A DNA stretch of 64,000 bases, taken from Dictyophora rubrovolvata (lineage: Eukaryota > Basidiomycota > Agaricomycetes > Phallales > Phallaceae). A program made the translations under genes and the position numbers. The stretch is taken from contig CP114118.1 in NCBI GenBank assembly GCA_029959195.1, positions 186,001 through 250,000 on the forward strand. Reading direction: 5' to 3'. The notes beneath the pieces were generated by a model. The model was not told the DNA's origin, did not search any database, and was given only the letters and a program-made list of their open reading frames with translations. Shown here piece after piece: positions 553 to 54,216 of the stretch (position 1 is the stretch's first letter; each line of letters begins with the position of its first letter).

Positions 553-1408
553 ATGCAATTCAAATCTGCTTTCTTTGTTACTCTTTTCTCAGTTCTCCTG
601 CTGTCTGTTGTTGCTTCCCCCGGTACGAATCTTACCAGTTTTGGATTTGTTGTACACTTGCTCAATGAATTTAAAAATTCGTTCATAGTTCCGGAGAATG
701 GTGAGTTATTTAACTAGTGGCTCAAGCGTTCTCCATTTTCTTAATTACTTCTCCTAGACTTTGTATCAAATGGTACGCTTAATTCACTGATGAATGCTTT
801 CATCATCCATGATATATGATACTTAGCTAATCCTTCAGTACCCGCTGACGTCGAAGGTGGTGAGTATATTGACACCTATGACAGACGAAAAAACCAAATG
901 CTCACATTGTTTAGAAAACATTGGTGAGATGATAGAACACTGAGCAAATCAAAATGATATTCAATCGTTCTCCCAGTTTCCGATAATCTCAAACGCGGCG
1001 GGCGTAAGTATACTGACCTCTAACGTGTGTCAGAATTCATGTACTTATGTTACTTAGTTTTTACTTTCCCACTGTTAAACGATGGCGGCGGTGAGTCCGA
1101 CAGTTCTAAGAAGGTTTGTTTGATCTAACCATTATTCCAATTGAACTAATTATAGGTAAGTAAAACGTTAGAGATCTACGGAATACATCATTCTGATTCC
1201 GTTTGATGATCCCGTACTTACCGGTAGATAGTAAGTAGTTTATCTTGACCATTGGTTTTGGCTACTGATTTTCACGTAACATTCCCCAGAATTCGTGAGT
1301 GCTCAGTTCATGTCATTTTTAGCTGGCTTATTAAATCACATACGTATACTATTCAGTAATGTTTTGACCTCAAAACCTCGAGTTCCCCGGTCAAATCTCC
1401 TGGAGTAG
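553..1408 (+). CDS. Small secreted protein made of micro-exons
   Basis: I do not recognise the family. Exon 1 (553-700) encodes a clear signal peptide (MQFKSAFFVTLFSVLLLSVV, then an AS-P cleavage region) and a short mature start ending VPEN. It is followed by candidate exons at 758-772, 839-859, 915-923, 977-1003 and 1058-1090, of 15, 21, 9, 27 and 33 nt. Each is flanked by AG and GT and all are in phase 1, so each can be skipped without changing frame. The introns are about 50-66 nt. A terminal exon from 1290 would run to TAG at 1408. At 1155/1156 an acceptor AG abuts GTAAG with no exon between. The fifth micro-exon encodes DNLKRGG, a possible KEX2-type dibasic site. Total length is about 124 aa. 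The signal-peptide exon is firm; the last exon is least certain. Confidence 0.55.
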
Positions 1409-5280: not shown

Positions 5281-7095
5281 ATGTTTTCATTTTTCGCTGT
5301 TATCTTCCTTCTCAATGCTGTTTTGGCATTACCTTCACCACGTCCTATTCAAATAATAGATGATCTGGTTTCAGTGTCCGATATTCGCCGTATAAATGCA
5401 ACTGAAGGGATGCGTAGAACGCTTGAGGTGCGGGCATAGAGGCAATAAACCTCTCCATGTGTACTAACATAATCCACAAAAAAACAGACCGGTCGTACTC
5501 ATGCTCAACATCTTATTCAAGAGGCGCAACAAAGGGCACGAAAAAAGGGCCTCTCCAATCAATTTGAAGGCTAGACAACAGTTCGTAAACGAGACATTCA
5601 GCATCCCTATCATCTGTAATATAGTAAGCTTATGTGTTTTTAAACGTACTTTTTTAATTTGAATGCCCACCATTTCAGTGTTATGCCTCGGTTGGTATCG
5701 GTACACCCCCTAAGCAATATAACCTTTCCGTGGATACGTAATTACTCGCGATGTTTGCATTGTTGAGCAAATATTGATGTTGTTTTGCTAATGTAGTGGT
5801 TCGTCCAACACCTGGGTTGGATCCCGCAGAACATTCGTTACAACTTCATCCACAGTATAGACCGGCCGAAGTGTATCAGTGAAGTACGGCGCTGACTCTT
5901 TCGTGAGTATTGGCTTCTCTTTCACGAACATGTCTCACTGATTCCGTCAAGTACGGAATTGAAGGTATGTCCCGTCATCTAGGTTCTGCGATTAACAATA
6001 CCCTCCCCAAGTTAATGACACAGTTACCCTGGCACCCAACTTCAAGATGTCGACGGAATTCTTGGCTTTGGTTCGTTACCGGTAAAAGGTTTACATCAAC
6101 CGAACAATATATAGGACTTAGAGATTTGACTCGGAACAGTTTGAGTCCGAATATAAACGGTGTAGTTCCTACCGTGGTTGATGTAAGTTTTCAAAACGGT
6201 TCCAACTTGACCGAAACATAACACTATCACACAGGGTTTGAAAGATCAAGGTTCGAATTATAATCCCATCAGATAATCAACACCAATAACGCAGAAGTTT
6301 TATAAGGTTTCATTGATACCAGCGTTATTGGCATTTCGATTCCTGACGCGTCAGGTTCTGGCGTTGGCAAAATTATTTTAGCGGCATTGACTCAACCTGA
6401 CAATTCACTGAAGAACCCCCATCACTAATGCTCCATCGGCGAGTGGATTCTGGGCCGTAGACGAAAGTATGACGTGCGTAGCCTCGAACAATCATGATTC
6501 ATGACTCTTCCAGTATGAACGGTTTCATAGGTACGGCCCAACCACTATCCTGCCAACCTGGGTGAGACTCATATATGTATATATTATTATTCTGAGAATA
6601 TGTTGTGACTTTGTTTTAAAAAAAGATGTGGGGAGCTCACGACATTTGATTGCTACCGATGCTTTCAAGGCTTATCAGGACGCAACGGCTGCAGATCACC
6701 CCCGAACAGTTTGCAAATTTCGAAAACATGGATATTGCTATCTCAGGGGTTAGTATCACATGTTTTGGTTGAATTTCATTATTCAGTTAGATTATTCTGA
6801 AGGTTATGTATTCTTTGACACTGAATGCCCAAACCTTTCCACCTTCATCTAATGCGGACATTGGTGGCGACCCAGATGGTATTTACTTGATCTAAATAGC
6901 CTTGGGAAAACAGCACCCAAGGCCTTGGTTCAATTATGGGTGTGAATATCCTGTACGCAACATTTATTCGTAATACGTTATTCCAATACTTAAGTTTGCT
7001 TACGCGGGTATTTTAGGTCGCGCTTCTATACTATTTACAACTCTGACGATGACGTTGTTGGCTGGGCTCCTAGCATTTTCACAATTTCTACTTAA
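5281..7095 (+). pseudogene. A1 aspartic peptidase, copy A (decayed)
   Basis: This is a polyporopepsin-like pepsin-family gene by collinearity with the copies at 18530, 27932, 54552 and 61195. It starts with a signal peptide (MFSFFAVIFLLNAVLA), has the propeptide, the first active-site exon (VDT, then GSSNTWVGS) and a recognisable C-terminal lobe ending DDDVVGWAPSIFT. It is a host gene and is broken in several ways. A TAG lies in frame shortly after the first catalytic motif (SSTV then stop, near 5859). About 75 bp is missing between TVTLAP and DGILG around 6030. A frame change near 6415 separates ISIPDASG from APSASGFWAVDE. The second catalytic motif reads DVG instead of DTG (near 6628). The promoter motif still resembles copy C. 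It flanks the cysteine-rich pair. Confidence 0.8.
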
Positions 7096-15867: not shown

Positions 15868-16395
15868 AAGCGAGTAGGTATAATGTATGAAATCATGTTA
15901 AATCAATAATCAAGTGTATGTCTAAATGTGTAATCTATTGTCCTCTACGAATCATAACCAGGAAGTCGTCTGTCTTAGGCTGAAAAACAAAAAATGGAAT
16001 AACCTGACGCATGAACTTGAATCTTGCTTAAATAATGCGCGATTTTCAATAAAATGTAATGATGGTATGGTGTGTGACAATGCGTTACGCACTCCTTGAC
16101 CACAAGCACATAGTCCACATGCACCCACACAACAAGCATTTCAACTGTTCTTTGCTGCCGACGACGATGTCGAGCGCGAGCCAACTAGCCGTAAACGTTA
16201 CAGTGGCAGTCAAGAAAACATCGGAGTGACATACATATAATTATTTACAGCGTATAACGTGCGACTATTAAAAGCCATTGAACAAGCCTTAATGACGTTG
16301 ACCTTTTGTGCCTGCCTTCCTGTGGACTAACCTGGCTGAACTGAAGGAAATTTTTTCAAAGGCCGCTGAATGCCCAGGAGCATGGTCCCGCGATC
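15868..16395. other. Intergenic
   Basis: No gene is supported. A minus ORF at 15975-16184 has no motif. Confidence 0.5.
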
Positions 16396-18106
16396 ATGTT
16401 ATCTCCCGACCCTATTAACAAAGTCTCTCATGCTGTCTCTTTTTCTGGAGAAGACAAGAAAGGGTCAAAAAAGAATCCCAAGAAGAAATCCGATGCCGTT
16501 GTTACAATCGCTGGCAGAACCATAACGATGAAAATGGACGCGCTTGACACGCTTTTTTATTTAATGGCAGAGCGACATCGTATCTACAGGAAACGCACTG
16601 CTGGACTGCCATTCCCGTGGACAAACGATCCGGTGCTCCTCGATAACAGGTTTTGCAACGTTTATCGCGTTTTGGATCGCGGAACGCAGTACGTCGTGAA
16701 TGAGGTCATCAACAAAGGACCTCTCGATCACCGAGAGACGTGTTTTCGCGTTATGTTGTACAAACTATTCAATCGGATTCCTACTTGGGAGTATATCGTT
16801 CAAAAGCTCGGTACGCCTACTTGGGAAACGTTCGACATAGCCAAGTATGGCAGAGTTCTTCGTGCACGCCTGTTGTCCTCACCCATCTACACCAGCGCAT
16901 ATCAAATACCGGCTCCGAAATTGGGTTACACGACATCCTATATGAACCATTTAAGACAACTTCAAATGATGATGGACGATGATGTACCTACATTGTTATT
17001 GCGGAAAACGAGCTTAAAGGACGCTTTTAAACTCATCGAAAGTTATCCGGGAATGGGTCCTTTCCTCGGCTTACAGTAAGAAATCGCTTGATTCATCACC
17101 TTAACACATCTTTCCCGACGTTATATCCAATAGACTACTTCTGGATCTTAACATGACGTCGCAACTCGACTTCTCTGAAAGTGAGTGGGTAACATGCGGG
17201 CCAGGCTCGCGAAACTATCTCCGACAAATATTTGGCAACGACGTCTCGGGTATTGAAAACGAGGCAATTGCTTATCTGCACATTACCCAGAATGACCATT
17301 TCGAGCGGATGGGTATTACAGATCCTCCTTCATTATCTCCCGACCGACCTGGAGTGTCGTATGTTGATATCGAGCATTCATTATGCGAGTGTCATAAATA
17401 TGTTAGGCTGCGAAAACAGCTTGGTACGGGTATGAGGTCGAAGAAGGAGGAATTCAAGCCGAACATTAAAGATGAGGCGAAGGTCAAAATGGATGAAACG
17501 AAGCCTGACGTGAAGAAAACAAAAGTTAAAAGGGAAATAGCCCCCGAAACGGGAACCAAATTAAAAGCGAAAGAGGTCATCAATATCATACTGCCGCCAG
17601 AACGTGAAGTAATCGTTATCTCAGACTCCGAAGATACACCGCAGCGCGAAGTGATCATCATCTCAGATTCTGATTCGAGCTCAGACTTATCGGACGTGGA
17701 AGAAATCTCGGATCCACGAATTCCCATATTTTCCAACCCGAATCAGGCTTTGGTCGACGAGGACATTTACGGCTTTGAAGATGGCGAAGGCGAAGGCGCT
17801 GATCCGGGCCGATATGTTGACGACGATACAGATTACGAGGTTTCCCGGATCGTAGCAGATCGCCGAACGGCGAAAGGAGGATGGGAATACAAAGTGCGGT
17901 GGACCGGGTATGGGCCCGAAGATGATATGTGGTTGCCTGAGCAGGAATTGCAGAATGCTCCGTCGATTTTGAGGGAATGGAGGGTGTCGAGACGAACTAG
18001 GTTACAGAGGAAGATGAAGGCAAAGACGAAGACGAAAACGAAAACAAAGGGTATTGGTCGGAATAAATCTGGTTTGAAATCACGGATCAAAAATTTTTCG
18101 GTTTGA
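16396..18106 (+). CDS. HMUDK-helical (aGPT-Pplase-like) domain protein with SIMs and chromodomain
   Basis: Two exons (16396-17075 and 17134-18106, intron 58 nt) encode about 550 aa. Residues about 45-325 match what I recall of the 5-hmdU DNA kinase helical / alpha-glutamyl-putrescinyl-thymine pyrophosphorylase-like domain of mushroom fungi: AERHRIYRKRTAGLPFPWT, RFCNVYRVLDRGTQYV, FRVMLYKLFNRIPTWE, YPGMGPFLGLQ, then across the intron LLLDLN, FSESEWVTCGPGS and VDIEHSLCECHKYVR. This fold was predicted to act on hypermodified thymine in DNA. A charged Lys/Glu linker follows, then two SUMO-interaction-like motifs (EVIVISDSED, EVIIISDSDS, about 382-409). A chromodomain lies at about 460-510 (EYKVRWTGYGPEDDMWLPEQ), then a Lys/Thr-rich basic tail. 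The domain order suggests a chromatin-bound DNA-base-modification or silencing factor. That role is inference. Confidence 0.8.
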
Positions 18107-44462: not shown

Positions 44463-46631
44463 ATACTATGAAAAACGGTGAAGGCCACACATGGCCTTCG
44501 GTTCGTGGACTGTCAGGGTACGCTAGCGTCATCCCCTTATTTTTCTACATTTATCTTCGGTTCTGGTCTATTTTATTTATTTCCATATTTCTCGTATTCT
44601 ATCCCATCTCTTGCATTTCCCTCTCCTTCCGTATTCCCATTTTTCCTCCAATGGGTGCTGAGCGCCCGTTCTCATCAGAGCCATGGCCTAGGCCCCAGCT
44701 AAAAGTCCGGGACCAGCGCATATCTGCGCCCAGTCCATGAACCAAAGGCCACGTGTGGCCTTCGCCATTTTTCATAGTATATAGTTAGTAGCCCTAGAGG
44801 AGGGATCCCTAAGTTTGTTCTCTTAGGATCCCCTCCCTCTAGGTGAGTTAGTATTATTCCTAGAATATATTTTGCTTAGGATCCCCTCCCTCTAGCCTGA
44901 GAGAGTAGCCCTGACAGTAGAACAAACTTCTACCCCGGGACCAGTCATTTCTATCAACGTTCACCTTCGGAAAATTGTCCTCGACAACGACTCGTTCCAT
45001 CTCAAGTCCTTCCTTGTGCTCCATCTATAACTTGACCCTTCCCATCCTTCTTACTGTGCACCTAGGCTATTTTTACTATCATGGAACCCAACCAGGCCAC
45101 TCTGAATCTAGAGCAATGTCTCGCGGCTATGGAACAAAATTTCCTTACGTGCAACACTCGACTCGAACAACTCCTATCTCGTCTCAAACCGTTTCTTCAA
45201 CCTCAACTCCCATCTGACTCTCCATCAGAACCCCCAGTAAACCCTCAATCCACCAATGTTCCCCCAGTCCGAGCATCAGCTCCATCTTTCACACGAGATT
45301 CACGAAATTCTCGTAATACCCATCCCGCAGTGCCTCAGTCCTTTGATGGTGATAGAAACAAAGGACGCATGTTCTGGAACTCTGTCCAGATCTATATGAG
45401 CACATGTAGCAAGGATTTCGTGACCGACCAAGAAATGATCATTTGGACACTATTGTATATGAATGATGGCCGCACCCACATTTTTGCTAATAGCCTGCTA
45501 CAGAAGTACCTTGCAGGTATCATTCCTTTCGTGACTTGGGGAGAATTCCGACTCAAGTTCAAAGAGGAATTTCTGCCCTTAACCGAACGCGATGATGCCC
45601 TCAACCTCCTCCTATCTGGCAGATATGCTCAAGGAGGTCGAACTGTAGAGGATTATGTGGACTCCTTCAATGTCCTCATAGAATGTGCTGGCTTCATGGA
45701 TGGCTTCGCCATCACAACGCACTTTTGACAAGGATTAGACCCGACAATTCAGTCCAAGGTCGCTACCATGCAGAGCCGACCCACATATGAAGATTTCGAA
45801 GGCTGGGTCAAGGCTGCGCGTGTTTTTGACCAAGATAGAAGAGCAAACGAAGCCTTCAGTGCCACTCGACGTCACCAACTTCCAACCCTGTCGACTCCTA
45901 ATTCCTTAATGATGGCTCCTATGTCTTGTCCTAGACTGGCACCCTTCCTGCCTCTAAGACCCACTATCCCCCAGTACCAACCACCTCCATTCCCACCTCC
46001 TAGGCCAGTTGCTCCTGGGTTTGCTGCTGCTCCGCCTAGGCCATCGATTCCAGTTCAACCTCCTCAATAACGTCATGACCCAATGGATGTTGATACCACA
46101 TGTTGACGGATGACCGTGGAATCCACTAGATGTTACCATTGTGGACAAGCTGGGCATCTCATGCGTGATTGTCCTCGCACGCATGACATTCATTTCGTGA
46201 ACACAGACGAGATCGACAACCTTGTCGAACTGCTCCTTGCCCAGAAGGACGTTGCAGAAGTGCAGAGTCGTGCAGGGCCTGGACCAACAGAGGAAGAAGA
46301 GACTCCTGCACCAGTAGCAACAGAGGATTTTCAGGAAGGTGACGAGTGAAGGATACACCCTCGTTGCCGACATTCAATAGATTTGACATTTTGTACATAG
46401 ATCGTGAACAAAATGATGATAGTAATTCGAATCCTATTACCCCTGCTGTATCTCCTAAAAACCCCCCTCTCCCTACACCTTCTTCTACACTGCCACCTCC
46501 ACGACTCTCAACTTCGAAGTGGAAGTCACTACCCTCTGAATATCGACTCGCAGCCACTGCCGGTACTCAGAAACTTGAAATCTCAGTAGAGCTCCAGAGT
46601 ACTGACACAGGAGATTTGATCACCAGCAAAG

Positions 46632-47494
46632 TGTTAAGTACCGATTCTCGGGTATCGGCAACGAATGTATAAATGTTAATAATCGTATTTAATGATGATA
46701 CAAACGTCACCGTAATGTCATAGAGTGCAGTCTCAACCTGAGTGGGTTGTACCATGACAGTCCTCTGGACGTTGGCTCTACTTGTCTTGACGTCATTCGG
46801 GATCTTCGAGTTGTTGTAGAATATTGTTGAGCCAAAGCTCTAAGAAGTCTAAAACGATCTGGTAGAATAGATCGTCGACTAGAAAGCAGAAGAACAAGAG
46901 ATGGAAGAAGTAGTGGATCCAACGCCGGAATGGCGTTGTCGCTACGGACAGTTTAGATTTAAAGCGTTTGGAAATGACTGAAGTGCTATTGGGAAATGAA
47001 GACTATATTGAGATATCAAACTAGGTTCAATATTAAGTCTGAAGAGAAGTCTAGCTACAAAGTATAGGAGGCTTTATATACAAGTATGCTAGAGATTTGA
47101 ATCTCAGTTCAAAATAGATAACAAACTTGAGAATGTATATATGTCATAACATTTTGTGAGTATCATGAGTGTATGCAGGGTCGGTTTGCCATGTGGCAAA
47201 CATGAGGCAACAAGAACAAAGGGAAAGCACATACAAAGACCTATGACCGTCATAGATGATCTCATGCACAGTTTGGGACTAGAATATCGACCAAAGGTCT
47301 ATCCGCAGCTTACTGTAAGTCCTAGGAGGACGACGGCGTCTAGGACTTCGTGAAAACGACAATGAAGTCTGATAAGACTTCCGGTCGTAGTGTCTGCGAA
47401 GCGATTGTGATAAGATAACATTTAAATATGATAAGATAAGGGAATATAATAAGGAATCCGTATCGCTAGTGATGTCATGAATCGGATCATGACA
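46632..47494 (+). mobile_element. 863-bp solo-LTR-like insertion, TSD CAAAG
   Basis: It is inserted between the gag and protease regions of the Gypsy element. The sequence begins TGTTAAGTACC and ends GGATCATGACA and is flanked by perfect 5-bp CAAAG duplications (46627-46631 and 47495-47499). The TG...CA ends and lack of coding capacity fit a solo LTR of a third, unrelated family. It is rich in AAGTCT/AGACTT-type motifs, also seen at about 42900-43250. Confidence 0.8.
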
Positions 47495-48483
47495 CAAAGC
47501 CATGCTTGACACGGGTGCTAGTGGTATGTTCCTGGACCGCGAGTTCATTGAGAGACATCAACTCCCGACTGTCAAACTCCTGAAACCTATTCCTGTATTC
47601 AATGTTGATGGTACACCCAACCAGGCCGGTGCTATCACACATGTGGTCGATCTGGTTATGAGGTATCAGTCCCACTCTGAACGTGTACTATTTGCCGTTA
47701 CCGCACTTGGAAAATATCCCGTATTACTGGGGCTACCTTGGTTCAAGGCCCACAACCTGGTGATTGACTATACTGCTGGAGAAGTAGAACTGACGCGTTG
47801 TAGTCCCCAATGTCGTTCCTGTGCACCCAGCTGGCCTTCGGGTCGTTGCACTAAATGTTCCTTTTGACAGATCCGAATGTCTGAAGATGTGAAGCTTGAC
47901 AACACTGAGGCTGAAGATCCTGACATGCCTGATCTGGCAGACATGGAAGATGAGCTCCAGCTTGAGGACAGCGATTGACTCTTTGGTATTTCGATGGTTG
48001 ACACTGGACCCGAGTTCCATCGCATTGGCGCAACCGAGACCATTTCACAAAGACTTGCTCAAGCTCATGCCAAGAACTCAGATGCTCCAGCCCCCAAGAG
48101 TTTTCACGATATTGTGCCTGAACAATTCCATGACTTTGACGACATCTTTTCCAAAGAATCCTTTGATTCGCTACTGATGTCAAAGAAATGGGATCACCCA
48201 ATAGAACTCGTCTCTGGTTCAGAGCCCAAATCCAGTAAGATCTACCCGCTGTCACCAAAGGAACAGGCCGAGTTGGACGCATTTCTAGAGGAAAACCTCA
48301 AATCAGGACGGATCCGACTCTCAAAGTCACCAATGGCCTCACCGGTGTTGCGCACCAAAATCTTCCTAATAAGGAAACATTCTGATTTTTGGTTCAAAGT
48401 GGAGTGTCAAACTACCAAAAACTTAACCGATACACCACAGCCTCTCGAAATCAAAACCCTTACAAAAAAAAAAAAAAAAAAAA

Positions 48484-49116
48484 ATGGCCGCATTTTCATT
48501 TCACTATACATCATCAATCTCTTTGCCCATTCCAGCATCTCCCACCGAGTCATTACCCCCCTCCGACGATGAATCTATATCACCTTTTCGTTTTTCGCCT
48601 TCCAGTCCAAGGACGTACAATTTGGATCTGCATACGACTCTTTATATCTATAGTTCCCAATATGCGAGTCTCAACATCGACGAAGAAACGTACCTCCCGA
48701 AGTTCCCTCCACCTCTTATTATTCGTCAATGCAGAAGTTCGGATTTGGTTCACCCCGGTCTCATGTTTGGAGAAAAGGTTTATATCGAGGAACGATTAGA
48801 CTGGTTTACAATTATCAACGTTTATTCTACACCCGAATCAGCCGTTAAAGACTCATATCAGATTTGGTTAGTGACACAAGAAGGGTTCGAATTTACATTC
48901 CTGGTTCTAGATGTGCCAAGTCGTTGGGTTGTCATGAAAAACATAAAAATGCAAAAACATAGCCCATATAGACCAGCCAATCTTGTTCCTGTAGATCCTC
49001 AAATGTCTCGTTTTTCACCCCATTCGCCAGAACCAATATCTCTCCCCTCTTCTCCATCCAAACGATCCTTCCGAAAGATCCGACGTGTTTGCTCAAACCT
49101 TCTTGGACGAAATTAG
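48484..49116 (+). CDS. Unknown ORF 1 in nested insertion
   Basis: This is a 210-aa ORF of unknown function with no recognised domain. It starts directly after an A21 run. The N-terminus is Ser/Pro-rich. The core at about residues 45-155 contains LNIDEETYLPKFPPPLII and, later, IWLVTQEGFEFTFLVLDVP. The tail is basic (SKRSFRKIRRVCSN). The core aligns with ORF 2, which follows 105 bp downstream on the same strand, so the two are paralogues. It is intact although the surrounding retroelement is broken. Confidence 0.5.
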   Translation: MAAFSFHYTSSISLPIPASPTESLPPSDDESISPFRFSPSSPRTYNLDLHTTLYIYSSQYASLNIDEETYLPKFPPPLIIRQCRSSDLVHPGLMFGEKVYIEERLDWFTIINVYSTPESAVKDSYQIWLVTQEGFEFTFLVLDVPSRWVVMKNIKMQKHSPYRPANLVPVDPQMSRFSPHSPEPISLPSSPSKRSFRKIRRVCSNLLGRN

Positions 49117-49221
49117 GACAAAAGGCTTGATTAGGATAAGCGATTAGATTTGTATTTCATCTCCTTCTTTCTTTTTGGACATTTCATTAGCGCTTAAAAA
49201 TTTTGGTTAACTCATATCATC

Positions 49222-49764
49222 ATGTCGGACAATAACGATACTCCTACTTCCCCTATTCCCCTTTTTCAACTCCCTTTCTTCCCTTTTGAATATTGTTCTT
49301 CTCTCAGATTCGGACCCAACCCTAATTTCCTCTCACGACTTCGCGTTTACAATACTCTTGTTTCTGAAATTGATGTCGACCCCTCCACAATGCTTCCAAT
49401 TACTCCACAGCCACTAATGGAGATTACTATTCCTTATGACGATCTGGAGATAGGATATCCACGAGCTTTAACCCTGTACGAACAAACCAACGTCAATGTC
49501 ATGGACGAATCGTATGAGTTTGTCGAGTTCCTTTCAACAAATCGTCAAGAAGAATCAATCTGGAGACTGGTCTTTCGTCATCAATTTCAAAGTTATACTC
49601 AATTCTTATTCATAGATGCACCCCTATCTGCCATCCCATCCCCTCCCGACTACTCTGTTGGAAATCAAACCCTCCCTTCCTATTCCGATCTCCAATCCAA
49701 TCTCATTCAAGATCTGGTATTGTTAAGCGTTGCCATAGCCATTATTATTGTGCCACAGCCATGA
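49222..49764 (+). CDS. Unknown ORF 2 in nested insertion
   Basis: This is a 180-aa ORF, paralogous to ORF 1. Shared pattern: I-D-x-x-T-x-L-P-x-x-P-x-P-L (IDVDPSTMLPITPQPL here), a DL about ten residues on, and W-x-L-V followed by F-L-x-x-D-x-P (IWRLVFRHQ, FLFIDAP). The C-terminus ends in a hydrophobic stretch LLSVAIAIIIVP that could be a membrane tail, absent from ORF 1. No known domain was recognised and the function is unknown. Confidence 0.5.
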   Translation: MSDNNDTPTSPIPLFQLPFFPFEYCSSLRFGPNPNFLSRLRVYNTLVSEIDVDPSTMLPITPQPLMEITIPYDDLEIGYPRALTLYEQTNVNVMDESYEFVEFLSTNRQEESIWRLVFRHQFQSYTQFLFIDAPLSAIPSPPDYSVGNQTLPSYSDLQSNLIQDLVLLSVAIAIIIVPQP

Positions 49765-52494
49765 AGAAGAAGATCTCGTCAACAAGAACCAGATCAGTAA
49801 GAAGTTTGGGATGGTAAGATTATAGTTTTGGGTAAGAGGTAGCGCGAGAAGTGCCAGATGGTGATTTTGGTAAAGCTATGCTGGGAATCCGGTTTCATTG
49901 TTTTCTTTTGATCTCTTTTTGTTCCTCTTTTGTTTCTCTTTTGTTTCAACATATTTCTCCTATTCCCCCTAACCACATATGCGATTCCCCTTTTTCTGTA
50001 ATTGTATCCTCCATCGTTTTCTCCGTTTTCTTTTGTTTCTTTGTTCTCTTTTTGTTTCCTTTTGTTATCATGGCGAATGATGAGTGATCATTCTGCTTTC
50101 CTTTATATTTCCAAATGGTATATATACTGCATGTAAATAATTGTAACAGCAGCAATCTACCAGAACGGTTGTCTCAAGTTTAGTTCAGTTTAAGTCAAGT
50201 TCAAGTCAAGTTTCGTCTCTAGTCTATTTCTACGCTCACGTCTATTTCTTTGGATTACTCTGAGTGAGGCCTCGGAGTATAAACTCAACGATTCGTATTG
50301 TCGTTGAAGCCTTACTAACTTTAAAACAGATTATCATCGCTGTATTATCGACGGCGTATTGACTCACCATTTTATCGCAACTCACATTTATCGTCCCCCT
50401 CACACACACACGATCTTAGGATCATCATTTTTTTTGTTGTTGTTGGTTTTATATCGACACACACACACTCGCTAAATATCATATTATTCCCCCACCCTCC
50501 TCCTTACGAAATCAGCACCAGGACCCGCTCCATGGAGACTAGACGGCCTCAAACAAAATATCTTCGTAGTTTTTCCGATTGTACATATAGCTACGACATT
50601 TAGCTATTATCTTCGGATCGTTACACCGGTCTTCTTTATCAAAAAGAAGGATGGTTCCCTTCGTCTCATTCAGGATTACCAGGCTCTGAATGCGATGACG
50701 ATCAAGAACCGTTATCCATTGCCCCTTATCCCGGAACTCATCAATAAGTTGCAGGGTGCCCGCTACTTCACAAAGCTCGATGTTTGATGGGGCTACAACA
50801 ATGTGCGGATAAAGGAAGGCGACGAGTGGAAGGCTGCGTTTCGTACTAATAGAGGCCTTTTCGAACCTTTGGTGATGTTTTTCGGCCTTACTAACAGTCC
50901 AGCCACCTTCCAGACGATGATGAACAAAATCTTTGAGGACATGATCTCAGAAGGTGTTGTCGCCGTGTATATTGACGATATCCTCATCTATACACGAGAT
51001 TTGGAACAACATCATCATATTACTCGACGTGTACTTGAACGGCTTCATGAGCACCAGCTATACCTTAAGGTGGAGAAATGCGAGTTCTGCAAGACCAAGA
51101 TTGAGTACCTTGGGATGGTCATATCCGAGAATACAGTCAAAATGGACCCTGCGAAGGTCTCGGGTGTTAGGGACTGGCCTGTCCCGAGAAACGTCACTGA
51201 AGTTCAATCCTTCCTCGGTTTTGCTAACTTCTATCATCATTTCATCAAAGACTTCTCTTGTATTGCGCTTCCAATGTTCGGTCTGACCAAAAAGGACACC
51301 TTGTTCATCTGGTCCAACAATTGTCAGCAAGCCTTCAATGCACTCAAGCTCTCAATCACTTCGGCTCCCATCTTGCTCATCCCAGACCCTGCTAAACCCT
51401 ACAAAGTTGAGGCAGACAGCTCCGACTTTGCTTATGGCGCAGTTCTCTTGCAGTTATTGGACGAGGACTGTAAATGGCACCCAGTCATGTTCTTCTCGAA
51501 AGCCCTGAGCCCCGTAGAATGCAACTATGAGATTCATGACAAGGAAATGCTGGCAATAATTCGAGCCCTGGAAGAATGGCGACACTTTCTCGAAGGTGCA
51601 AGTCACCCCATCGACATTCGCACTGACCATAAGAACTTGGAGTACTTTATGACCGCTCGCAACCTCAATCGTCGACAAGCTCGGTGGTCAGTCTATCTTG
51701 CTCGATTCGACTTCACCCTCCAGCACATCCCGGGTAAGTCAATGGGGAAGCCCGACAGCCTCTCTCGACGTGCAGATCACGGATCAGGAAAGGATGACAA
51801 CCAAGGGATCACCCTTATCCGACCCGAGATGTTTGCAATCAATGCCCTGCAAACATTCCGTATCTGAGGAGAAGAGGAAGACTTCCTACGTCAGATTCGC
51901 AAGGCCAATCGAGAAGGCAAGCATGAGGATAGCGTCTCCAAAGCCGTCACTTCTCTTTGAGCTCTTGGTGGTCATTCGGTGCATACCAGTGAATGGTCTG
52001 AAGATCAGGATGTTCTCTACTACCGTGGTAAGATCTATGTTCCCAATGTCGAGGATCTATGACAAGAAATTGTTGCACGTCATCATGATACCAAAGTCGG
52101 TGGTCACCCAGGTCGTTTCAAAACTCTGGAGCTGGTCTCTCGAACCTTTTGGTGGCCGGGTATGTCTCGGTACATCCAACGATATGTCGAAGCCTGCGAT
52201 CTCTGCTTGCGTACGAAAATAGCTCGCCACGCACCCTTTGGCAAGTTGCGCCCCACCAAGACACCACACCGTCCTTGGGAGTTCATATCCGTCGACTTTA
52301 TCGTTGAACTCCCAGAATCTAATGGGTATGATGCAATCCTCTCTGTGGTAGATTCGCTAACCAAACAAGTCCATTTCATCCCCACATTCACCACTATTGA
52401 CGCATCTGGTCTCGCGAGTCTATACCTGCAACATGTGTGGAAGCTGCATGGCCTCCCTGACAAGATCATTTCCGACAGGGGGCCACAGTTTGTG

Positions 52495-52707
52495 TAAGTT
52501 AATTAGTCTCTTCCCTAGTGGTCGGTAACGACAACTCTATTACCTGTAAGTTAATTAGTCTACAGGTGTGTAAGTATGCTATGTTATTGTATCGATGTGG
52601 TTTACTCACCTCTTCCCTAGTGGTCAGTAATGACAACTAGGGGAGAGGTGACGTGCTTGTACTACACGTATAGGGCGTGATACTGGCACTTAGTATGCCG
52701 GATTCTA
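52495..52707 (+). mobile_element. 213-bp insertion with hairpin and splice-like borders
   Basis: It is inserted in the integrase region of the Gypsy element. It is flanked by a 10-bp direct repeat ACAGTTTGTG (52485-52494 and 52708-52717). It contains a 16-bp direct repeat (GTAAGTTAATTAGTCT at 52494 and 52546), a second direct repeat starting CTTCCCTAGTGGTC, and a 15-bp hairpin (52607-52621 with 52636-52650, one mismatch). It begins like a donor (GTAAGT) and ends CTAACAG. It resembles a MITE or an introner-like element. Confidence 0.6.
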
Positions 52708-54216
52708 ACAGTTTGTGGCATGCTTCACGAAGGAACTCTCTCGACTCCTTGGAATTCGACTCGCCACGTCCACAGCCTACCATCCCCAAACTGATGGTCA
52801 GACCGAGAGGGTTAATGCAGAAGTTGAACAGTACATCCGACTCTTCACCTTGGAACGACAGGATGACTGGGATAGGCTGCTTCCCATGGCCGAGTTTGCA
52901 TACAACAACCACGTACACTCAGCAACACAAGTGACACCTTTTGAGTTGGACATGGGCCGTCAACCGCATATGGGCTTCGAACCTCGTATCCCCGAATCGA
53001 AAATCGAGTCTGTCAACAAGTTCAAAGACCGTATGTCATCAACTATCGAAGAAGCCAGAGCTGCTATCATCAAGGCCAAGGACGACATGGCCAAGTACTA
53101 CGATTGTAAACGACTCCCAACTCCCGAATATAAGATTGGTGACAAGGTCTACCTCGATGCCAGTGACATTCGCACTACCAGGCCTTCAGCAAAGTTGTCC
53201 CATCGCTTCCTAGGGCCTTTTCCTATAGCAGCAAGAGTCGGCTCTCATTCATATCGCCTACTCCTACCCAAATCGATGTCACAGCTTCACCCAGTCTTTC
53301 ATGTCGTGAAGTTATGTCCGAGAACAGAAGATACCATCCCAGGTCGTCATTCTCGAATCCCTCCTCCTCCCGAGATTCGCGATGATGGAGAACATTATGT
53401 TGTGGAAGAGGTCTTGGATAGTCGAGTCCAACGGAGCAAACTCGAATTCAAGGTTCATTGGGAAGGTTATGGCCCGGAGCATGGGTACCAGAGAAGGACC
53501 TTGCAGCCCCCGATCTCTTGGGTAAATTCTATCAAGAGCATCCTAATGCACCACGTGCAATAAATGGTCTGTTGTTCTGCCCACGGCCAATCCGACCTTG
53601 GGAGAGACTGCAGGCGTCGGGTCGATGCCTGGTTGAAGGGGGGGGTGGTGTCAGGGTACGCTAGCGTCATCCCCTTATTTTTCTACATTTATCTTCAGTT
53701 CTGGTCTATTTTATTTATTTCCATATTTCTCGTATTCTATCCCATCTCTTGCATTTCCCTCTCCTTCCGTATTCCCATTTTTCCTCCAACGGGCGCTGAG
53801 CGCCCGTTCTCATCAGAGCCATGGCCTAGGCCCCGGCTAAAAGTCCGAGACTGGCGCATATCCGCGCCCAGTCCATGAACCGAAGGCCGCGTGTGGCCTT
53901 CGCCATTTTTCATAGTATATAGTTAGTAGCCCTAGAGGAGGGATCCCTAAGTTTGTTCTCTTAGGATCCCCTCCCTCTAGGTGAGTTAGTATTATTCCTA
54001 GAATATATTTTGCTTAGGATCCCCTCCCTCTAGTCTGAGAGAGTAGCCCTGACAGAACGGGTGCTCAGTGCCCGTTGAAGGGAAAAATGGAAATACAGAA
54101 GGAAAGGGGAAGACAAGGAGTAGGATAAAATACGAGAAATGTGGAAATAAATAAAATAGATAGGAACCGAAGATAAACGGAAGAGACGAAAGGGACGGTG
54201 TTAGCGTACCCTGACA

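Follow-up and report, generated by a model that had tools for sequence, protein, structure and literature searches.

Can a row of exons of only a few nucleotides each, all in one phase, make up the gene of a secreted protein in a fungus? This question is raised by locus W, which is contained in a stretch of 64,000 nucleotides of the Dictyophora rubrovolvata genome (C2:186001-250000; genome size 28.2 Mb, 11 contigs). This whole stretch is referred to as the window, and positions without a contig or locus prefix are those of the window. A first-pass annotation had proposed that a secreted protein is pieced together here from symmetric micro-exons. The proposal is well supported by the exon order found in paralogues, by a frame-keeping indel between W and its paralogue P9, and by an excess of synonymous differences in exons 2-4. 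Taking the account as a whole, we consider it probable that W codes for protein, belongs to a small fungal gene family, and yields a secreted peptide built from micro-exons.

Gene model of locus W

All features of W described here are on the plus strand. The motif TATTTAAA (478-485) is followed 32 bp on by CACTCATTC (510-518), a possible transcription start; judged by their sequence, the two would constitute a TATA box/initiator pair. This core promoter (478-518) is shared by the relatives of W in the same genome: TATTTAA or TATATAA stands about 30 bp before CACT in all six aligned copies (W, P9, P10, P8, P1 and P5), and CACTCAT is present in five of the six. Exon 1 (553-622; 70 nt) encodes the putative signal peptide MQFKSAFFVTLFSVLLLSVVASP together with the first base of the next codon, ends at the donor GTACGA, and is alike in the same six copies. 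Signal peptide and secretion of the product were judged by eye. Downstream of the signal-peptide exon, the model has six exons (12, 15, 21, 9, 27 and 33 nt), a zero-length exon, a 3-nt and a 5-nt exon, and the stop codon.

Exon 2 (689-700; VPEN) has 12 nt in W, P9, P8, P1 and, as read by eye, P5; it has 15 nt in the decayed copy P10, and W and P9 agree at 12 of its 12 bases. Exon 3 (758-772; DFVSN) is 15 nt long in three arrays (W, P9, P8) and 9 nt long in P1. Exon 4 (839-859; VPADVEG) is 21 nt long in those three arrays, and was modelled with 38 nt, a length not divisible by three, in P1. A second AG upstream of exon 4 in W would provide an alternative 33-nt form in frame; P9 retains the 21-nt site alone. 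Exon 5 (915-923; ENI; 9 nt) was modelled in W only, the preceding AG being lost in P9 and no placement being found in the P8 and P1 models. Exon 6 (977-1003; VSDNLKRGG), with Lys-Arg codons at 991-996, measures 27 nt in both W and P9, which share 26 of the 27 bases; it measures 24 nt in P8, and 34 or 33 nt in P1. The fast-changing exon 7 (1058-1090; LFTFPLLNDGG) has 33 nt in W and P1 and 30 nt in P9, where 21 of 30 bases equal those of W; it has no placement in P8. The zero-length exon (1154-1161) consists of an acceptor AG (1154-1155) directly against a donor GTAAGT (1156-1161), an arrangement that resembles a recursive splice site. Exon 9 (1228-1230; ATA) has 3 nt in W and 6 nt in P9, P8 and P1; its acceptor, CAG in P9, is displaced downstream by 3 nt in W, which keeps the frame. 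Exon 10 (1290-1294; AATTC) has 5 nt in W, P9, P8 and P1, is not symmetric, and leads from phase 1 to phase 0. The stop codon TAA (1357-1359) forms the first bases of the last exon, with TAA at the same place in P9 and TAG in P1; no stop exon was identified in the P8 model.

The five exons of 15, 21, 9, 27 and 33 nt (758-1090) were already part of the first-pass annotation. All of them are present with AG before and GT after, every length is divisible by three, the phase is 1 throughout, and the frame is open. The earlier list was exact for these five, but it missed exon 2 (689-700), the zero-length exon (1155/1156), the exons at 1228-1230 and 1290-1294, and the stop codon at 1357-1359. The ten introns of W measure 53-72 nt each, and exons 2-7, 9 and 10 all start at codon position 2. 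The spliced product, MQFKSAFFVTLFSVLLLSVVASPVPENDFVSNVPADVEGENIVSDNLKRGGLFTFPLLNDGGDKF, has 65 amino acids in the model. Cysteine is absent from all four array models (W, P9, P8, P1), and tryptophan from all five modelled proteins (these four and P5). At E 10 no Pfam family matched W or the final models of P9, P8 and P1 (two models for P1), and at E 0.01 none matched P5. Among solved structures there was a single hit, at E 1.5, which was rejected as chance.

Kex2-processed repeat peptides contain several repeats separated by KR sites, and these sites are conserved within a family. The W family differs from them, since a single KR is present in W and P9. The LKR site had been taken as a hint at proteolytic maturation; the hint is a weak one, for the site occurs in the W and P9 models but is absent from those of P8, P1 and P5.

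Comparison with chance expectation

The scan for symmetric chains admitted phase-1 exons between 3 and 39 nt long whose length is a multiple of three, flanked by a YAG acceptor and a GTRHGH donor and separated by introns of 43-78 nt. The longest chain was 6 in W (the scan used the 33-nt form of exon 4), 4 in P8, 4 in P1, 2 in P9 and 1 in P5. In the rest of the window it was 1 on the plus strand after position 1450 and 1 on the whole minus strand. Sixty third-order Markov sequences, each 64 kb long and scanned on one strand, had a longest chain of 0 in one case, 1 in 49 and 2 in ten. The symmetric array of W is not a chance product, because W has a chain of 6 where none elsewhere in the window exceeds 1 and none in the 60 Markov sequences exceeds 2. 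A narrower donor rule, GTRHGY, excludes two of the ten W donors; it gives chains of 2 in W, 2 in P9, 4 in P8, 4 in P1 and 0 in P5, with 2 being reached in one of 60 Markov sequences, and under this rule W by itself would not be exceptional. Strong donors of the form GTRAGW, which account for eight of the ten donors in W, number 8 per 620 bp at the locus versus at most 4 elsewhere in the window, and 20 second-order Markov sequences each peaked at 3-5.

Across the window and 61 loci (300,848 overlapping bases), three chains of at least 2 were found outside the family, all of length 2 (L040, L044, L046) and all in loci that had been selected by donor pattern; another chain of 2, in L004, belongs to P9. 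The acceptor AAG, present on a 30-nt exon of L040 and on exon 3 of P9 and P8, is missed by a scan that requires YAG. L040 provides a positive control: at 1420-1770 (region of C3:762339), the frame of a heptad repeat continues across two phase-1 exons, one of 30 and one of 12 nt, whose donors are GTAAGT. By its YSPTSP repeat, we take this gene to encode the RNA polymerase II CTD heptads. Since the micro-exons lie within the heptad frame, exons of this kind appear to be in use in this fungus within the gene of a known protein.

Elsewhere in the window, a 5-hmdU DNA kinase-like helical domain extends across two ORFs at 16345-18106, the second of which carries a chromodomain. Pieces of a Ty3-type retroelement (gag, reverse transcriptase/RNase H, SH3-like, chromodomain) are located at 45066-53563. 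The kinase-like gene, the retroelement pieces with a chromodomain and the shortness of the introns would fit a fungal, probably basidiomycete, genome.

Family members in the genome

The relatives of W in the genome are three paralogues with a similar layout (P8, P9, P1), the shorter P5, and two decayed copies. Genome search placed P9 at C3:258757-259524 (minus strand; 80%), P5 at C5:715577-715666 (minus) and the match of P1 at C1:2669849-2670015 (minus). P8 (match C2:184374-184639, minus; 70%) is arranged head to head with W, its start codon lying about 1.9 kb from that of W. The decayed copy P10 (C3:388015; L010 6015-6490) carries an internal deletion, and a remnant at L008:1717-2186 consists of promoter and 3' flank only; in both, upstream and 3' flanking DNA is retained and the middle of the gene is gone. 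A protein search of the genome with the W product led to W, P9 and P10, and one with exon 1 of P5 to P5 and P8; DNA searches with P8, P5 and P1 as queries added P5 and P1. As P1 was missed by both protein queries, distant family members may have escaped.

W, P9, P8 and P1 have a common order: the signal-peptide exon and the 12-nt exon come first, further short ones follow, and after these one of 0 or 6 nt, one of 3 or 6 nt and the 5-nt exon; in W, P9 and P1 the stop comes directly after. P5, as read by eye, consists of exon 1, the 12-nt exon and then an exon of 36 or 6 nt, all in phase 1. Exon 4 of P1 is unreadable as symmetric; in-frame models of P1 use either a pair of 38-nt and 34-nt exons, or a 33-nt exon 6 with exon 4 skipped. 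Exon phases were compared in same-genome paralogues standing in for orthologues, and this comparison did not overturn the proposal. Within the span 553-1310, W and P9 differ by ten indels. The single exonic one (3 nt) retains the frame, while eight of the nine intronic ones are not multiples of three. Because layout and frame are largely retained in copies of the same genome, the W gene is probably real.

The last intron of P9 contains an insert of 1,258 bp (L009 5499-6756). An ORF within it (6109-6432) resembles a Pif1/Helitron helicase tail by its motif; it has no Pfam match.

A genome-wide class of such genes was considered as well, and no second family was found in a strong-donor search of the genome. 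The site pattern of exon 10 gave ten genome matches at one mismatch or fewer versus 14 for the control. Exact matches genome-wide are confined to the four arrays (W, P9, P8, P1) from which the pattern had been derived, and the other six matches were rejected as members, since strong donors around them number no more than 3 per 620 bp versus 7-8 in the arrays. A triple strong-donor pattern matched 19 times in the genome versus 28 times for the reversed control, ten of the 19 being located in W, P8, P9 and P1. Chain-scanning of the remaining nine gave three with chains of 2 and none longer; L040, L045, L046 and L048 among them were read by eye, and L040 was decoded. An origin of the array by tandem exon-intron duplication or introner-like spread was likewise rejected: two of 45 W intron pairs reach p<=0.02 against shuffles, which is about chance (pair 2/5 beat all 200 shuffles, pair 3/6 stands at 0.02). 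Repeats within W, P9 and P8 are short ones only.

Selection on the spliced frame

In exons 2-4, W and P8 show 8 synonymous and 5 nonsynonymous differences at 11.3 and 36.7 sites, respectively (p 0.004; ratio 0.07), and P9 and P8 show 9 and 8 (p 0.01). W and P9 show 2 and 4 in the same exons (p 0.45), i.e., no synonymous excess. These tests treat sites as independent and the pairs share branches, which renders the p values supportive rather than exact. The same alignments read in the two wrong frames gave p 0.52-0.98. As the excess is absent in both wrong frames, the comparisons show that the spliced frame was under selection in the past. In exon 1 there is a synonymous excess (p <=0.05) in seven of 15 pairs, namely W, P9 or P10 with P8 or P5, plus P8-P5; there is none in the five pairs with P1, nor when W, P9 and P10 are paired with one another (three pairs). 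The decayed P10 passes the exon 1 test, so the test reports past selection and not present function of W.

These comparisons bear on another reading of the locus, in which the array does not exist, translation continues from exon 1 into intron 1 to give a secreted protein of 54 amino acids, and the remainder is untranslated. The unspliced frame of W does reach a stop at 715-717. However, a 1-nt indel between W and P9 in intron 1 shifts the shared read-through frame, P8 has a stop shortly after exon 1, and the synonymous excess in the spliced frame carries on in exons 2-4. We regard such a read-through product as highly improbable.

Between W and P9, identity is 93% in the signal-peptide exon and 90% in the splice signals, compared with 79.5% in intron interiors (p 0.008 and 0.025, respectively, versus introns). 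The micro-exons taken together reach 83.6%, which does not differ significantly from the 79.5% of the intron interiors (p 0.37). Exon 7 (21/30) and exon 5 (6/9) lie below intron identity, and exon 2 (12/12) and exon 6 (26/27) above. All micro-exons together show 3 synonymous and 13 nonsynonymous differences (ratio 1.48). For exons 6-7 the counts are 1 and 9 (ratio 3.38, p 0.24). Positive selection on the tail was rejected on these grounds, as nine of ten changes are nonsynonymous but the result is not significant, and no constraint on exons 6-7 was detected between W and P9. Because the comparisons of W and P9 micro-exons give no synonymous excess, the alignments demonstrate constraint for exons 1-4 only, via P8; on this evidence the head of the protein was constrained.

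A further reading takes W to be a decaying gene or a non-coding RNA in which the micro-exons are now irrelevant. Exons 5-7 jointly change as fast as introns (53/66 bases equal versus 360/453), although exon 6 alone does not; P10 and the remnant at L008:1717-2186 are clearly decayed; and an insert of 1.26 kb has entered the last intron of P9. Against this reading stands the synonymous excess of W and P8 in exons 2-4, which appears in the spliced frame only, as well as the stop position and frame retained in W, P9 and P1. An Rfam search of 200-1800 gave no match at gathering score, and therefore no known snoRNA host is indicated and no known snoRNA in the introns of W; the one sub-threshold match (366-429, E 0.42) is located upstream on the other strand. 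A relic or non-coding locus is thus decidedly unlikely in our judgement, and a coding gene with a formerly constrained head is the reading preferred here.

Possible exon skipping and the zero-length exon

The first-pass annotation had stated that any subset of the micro-exons can be skipped without loss of frame, and computation bears this out: all 128 of 128 skip combinations of the seven symmetric exons of W are open to the final stop, corresponding to 128 distinct proteins. The counts are 64/64 for P8 (with a placeholder stop), 64/64 for P1 (in one reading) and 56/64 for P9. It is conceivable on this basis that W is a combinatorial gene, in which varying sets of symmetric exons are skipped and many secreted peptides arise from one locus; exon 5 is in fact absent from the P9 and P8 models with the frame intact. 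In W the last base of exons 1-5 and 7 is G, and for this reason most junction codons begin with G and cannot be stops. However, in 22% of 300 trials with random exons that had the same lengths and were open when unskipped, no skip combination closed the frame either, so the openness of W represents a capacity and not a proof. Moreover, the strong sites at eight of ten donors would favour constant inclusion, presumably the default for most exons. A combinatorial output from W seems rather unlikely to us.

The AG abutting GTAAGT is common to W and P9, and 6 nt stand in between in P8 (ATGAAA) and P1 (AGGAAC). Removed in a single step, the intron of W would measure 137 nt (1091-1227), about twice the usual size. 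From this arrangement we infer a two-step (recursive) removal of the intron at the zero-length site of W and P9; the mRNA would be identical either way. The change at this site may have been a loss or a gain of 6 nt, the relation of W to P8 and P1 leaving both directions. Counterparts of 1154-1161 lie in L008 and L024; overall, two paralogues carry a 6-nt exon that is of zero length in the other two (AG|GTAAGT).

Combining both aspects, W might be an independently evolved fungal counterpart of the micro-exon genes (MEGs) of schistosomes: a 0.8-kb locus with up to 128 secreted forms, whose exons dwindle to 3 nt and finally to zero length, the zero-length exon being kept as a recursive site. If this were true, the W family would capture the step from a micro-exon to a recursive site, or the reverse. 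We consider this extended proposal unlikely.

The mechanism that we favour for W is less far-reaching. A TATA-type promoter would give rise to a transcript with a signal peptide on its first exon; removal of the 53-72-nt introns would join the phase-1 micro-exons into a cysteine-free precursor of 65 amino acids, from which a secreted linear peptide of about 42 amino acids would be derived. This peptide may have a role as an extracellular signal or in interaction, with a constrained N-terminal PVPEN.F.SNVP and a tail free to change. In W and P9, the 6-nt exon of the P8 and P1 arrays would have shrunk to zero, leaving an intron that could be removed in two steps. Owing to the symmetric phase, exons could be lost or shifted over evolutionary time with the protein left intact, and they may also be open to skipping in the transcript.

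Relation to known systems

Schistosome MEGs encode a signal peptide, are composed of many short and mostly symmetric exons, form small families, and yield secreted, fast-evolving products (PMC8293314; PMC10526429). A motif with a conserved Trp after the signal peptide is described as well (PMC10526429). W is similar in architecture, with a signal peptide, identified by eye, at the N-terminus on the first coding exon, and with exons 2-7 and 9 of 12, 15, 21, 9, 27, 33 and 3 nt, where most MEG exons measure up to 36 bp and are divisible by three. The likeness to schistosome micro-exon genes drawn by the first-pass annotation holds for architecture, but not for kinship. W introns measure 53-72 nt versus about 0.1-5 kb in MEGs, the organism is unrelated, and neither the MEG motif nor a Trp occurs in the W-family models. 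Alternative splicing shown in transcripts and raised dN/dS are further MEG traits; the dN/dS values here are 1.48 for W and P9 micro-exons, 3.38 (p 0.24) for exons 6-7, and 0.07 for exons 2-4 of W and P8.

Bicycle genes of aphids have many tiny internal exons, nearly all starting from codon position 2, often encode a signal sequence, and have a structure that is steadier than their sequence (PMC9168663). The internal exons of W (2-7, 9 and 10) start at codon position 2 as well. W differs from bicycle genes in the lack of a CYC motif (no cysteines in the W, P9, P8 and P1 models), in far fewer exons and a shorter product, and in belonging to an unrelated organism.

Among fungi, the bglA gene of basidiomycete yeasts contains ten microexons below 30 bp in Rhodotorula minuta, the smallest of 6 bp, and a smallest exon of 5 bp in Sirobasidium magnum, with introns of about 60 nt (PMC9142197). 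Several microexons under 30 bp within one gene and a similar intron length are shared with W. The bglA products, however, are large enzymes with a mean exon near 100 bp, whereas the W product past the signal peptide is encoded almost entirely by same-phase micro-exons. Xlr2 of Trichoderma virens contains a functional switch microexon in a filamentous fungus (PMC11121469), and in rtnA of Aspergillus the loss of a short exon is linked to stwintrons, i.e., introns removed stepwise (PMC6616335). Each of these cases concerns a single microexon or complex intron, and the genes are those of a regulator or a reticulon-like protein; W has two introns abutting around a zero-length exon with no nested intron. 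A functional microexon in a fungus, stepwise introns, and multi-microexon genes in basidiomycete yeasts are thus already in print. A fungal secreted family of same-phase micro-exons was not found among the matches listed in open-licence PMC literature, and may occur in print.

Exons of 3-15 nt tend to escape gene finders, and such genes may consequently be missing from lists of fungal secretomes. If the present model is confirmed, the paralogues of W would let exon loss, acceptor shift and zero-length exons be studied stepwise. W works like MEGs and bicycle genes and belongs to neither; upon confirmation, secreted proteins built from same-phase micro-exons would have arisen in fungi besides schistosomes and aphids.
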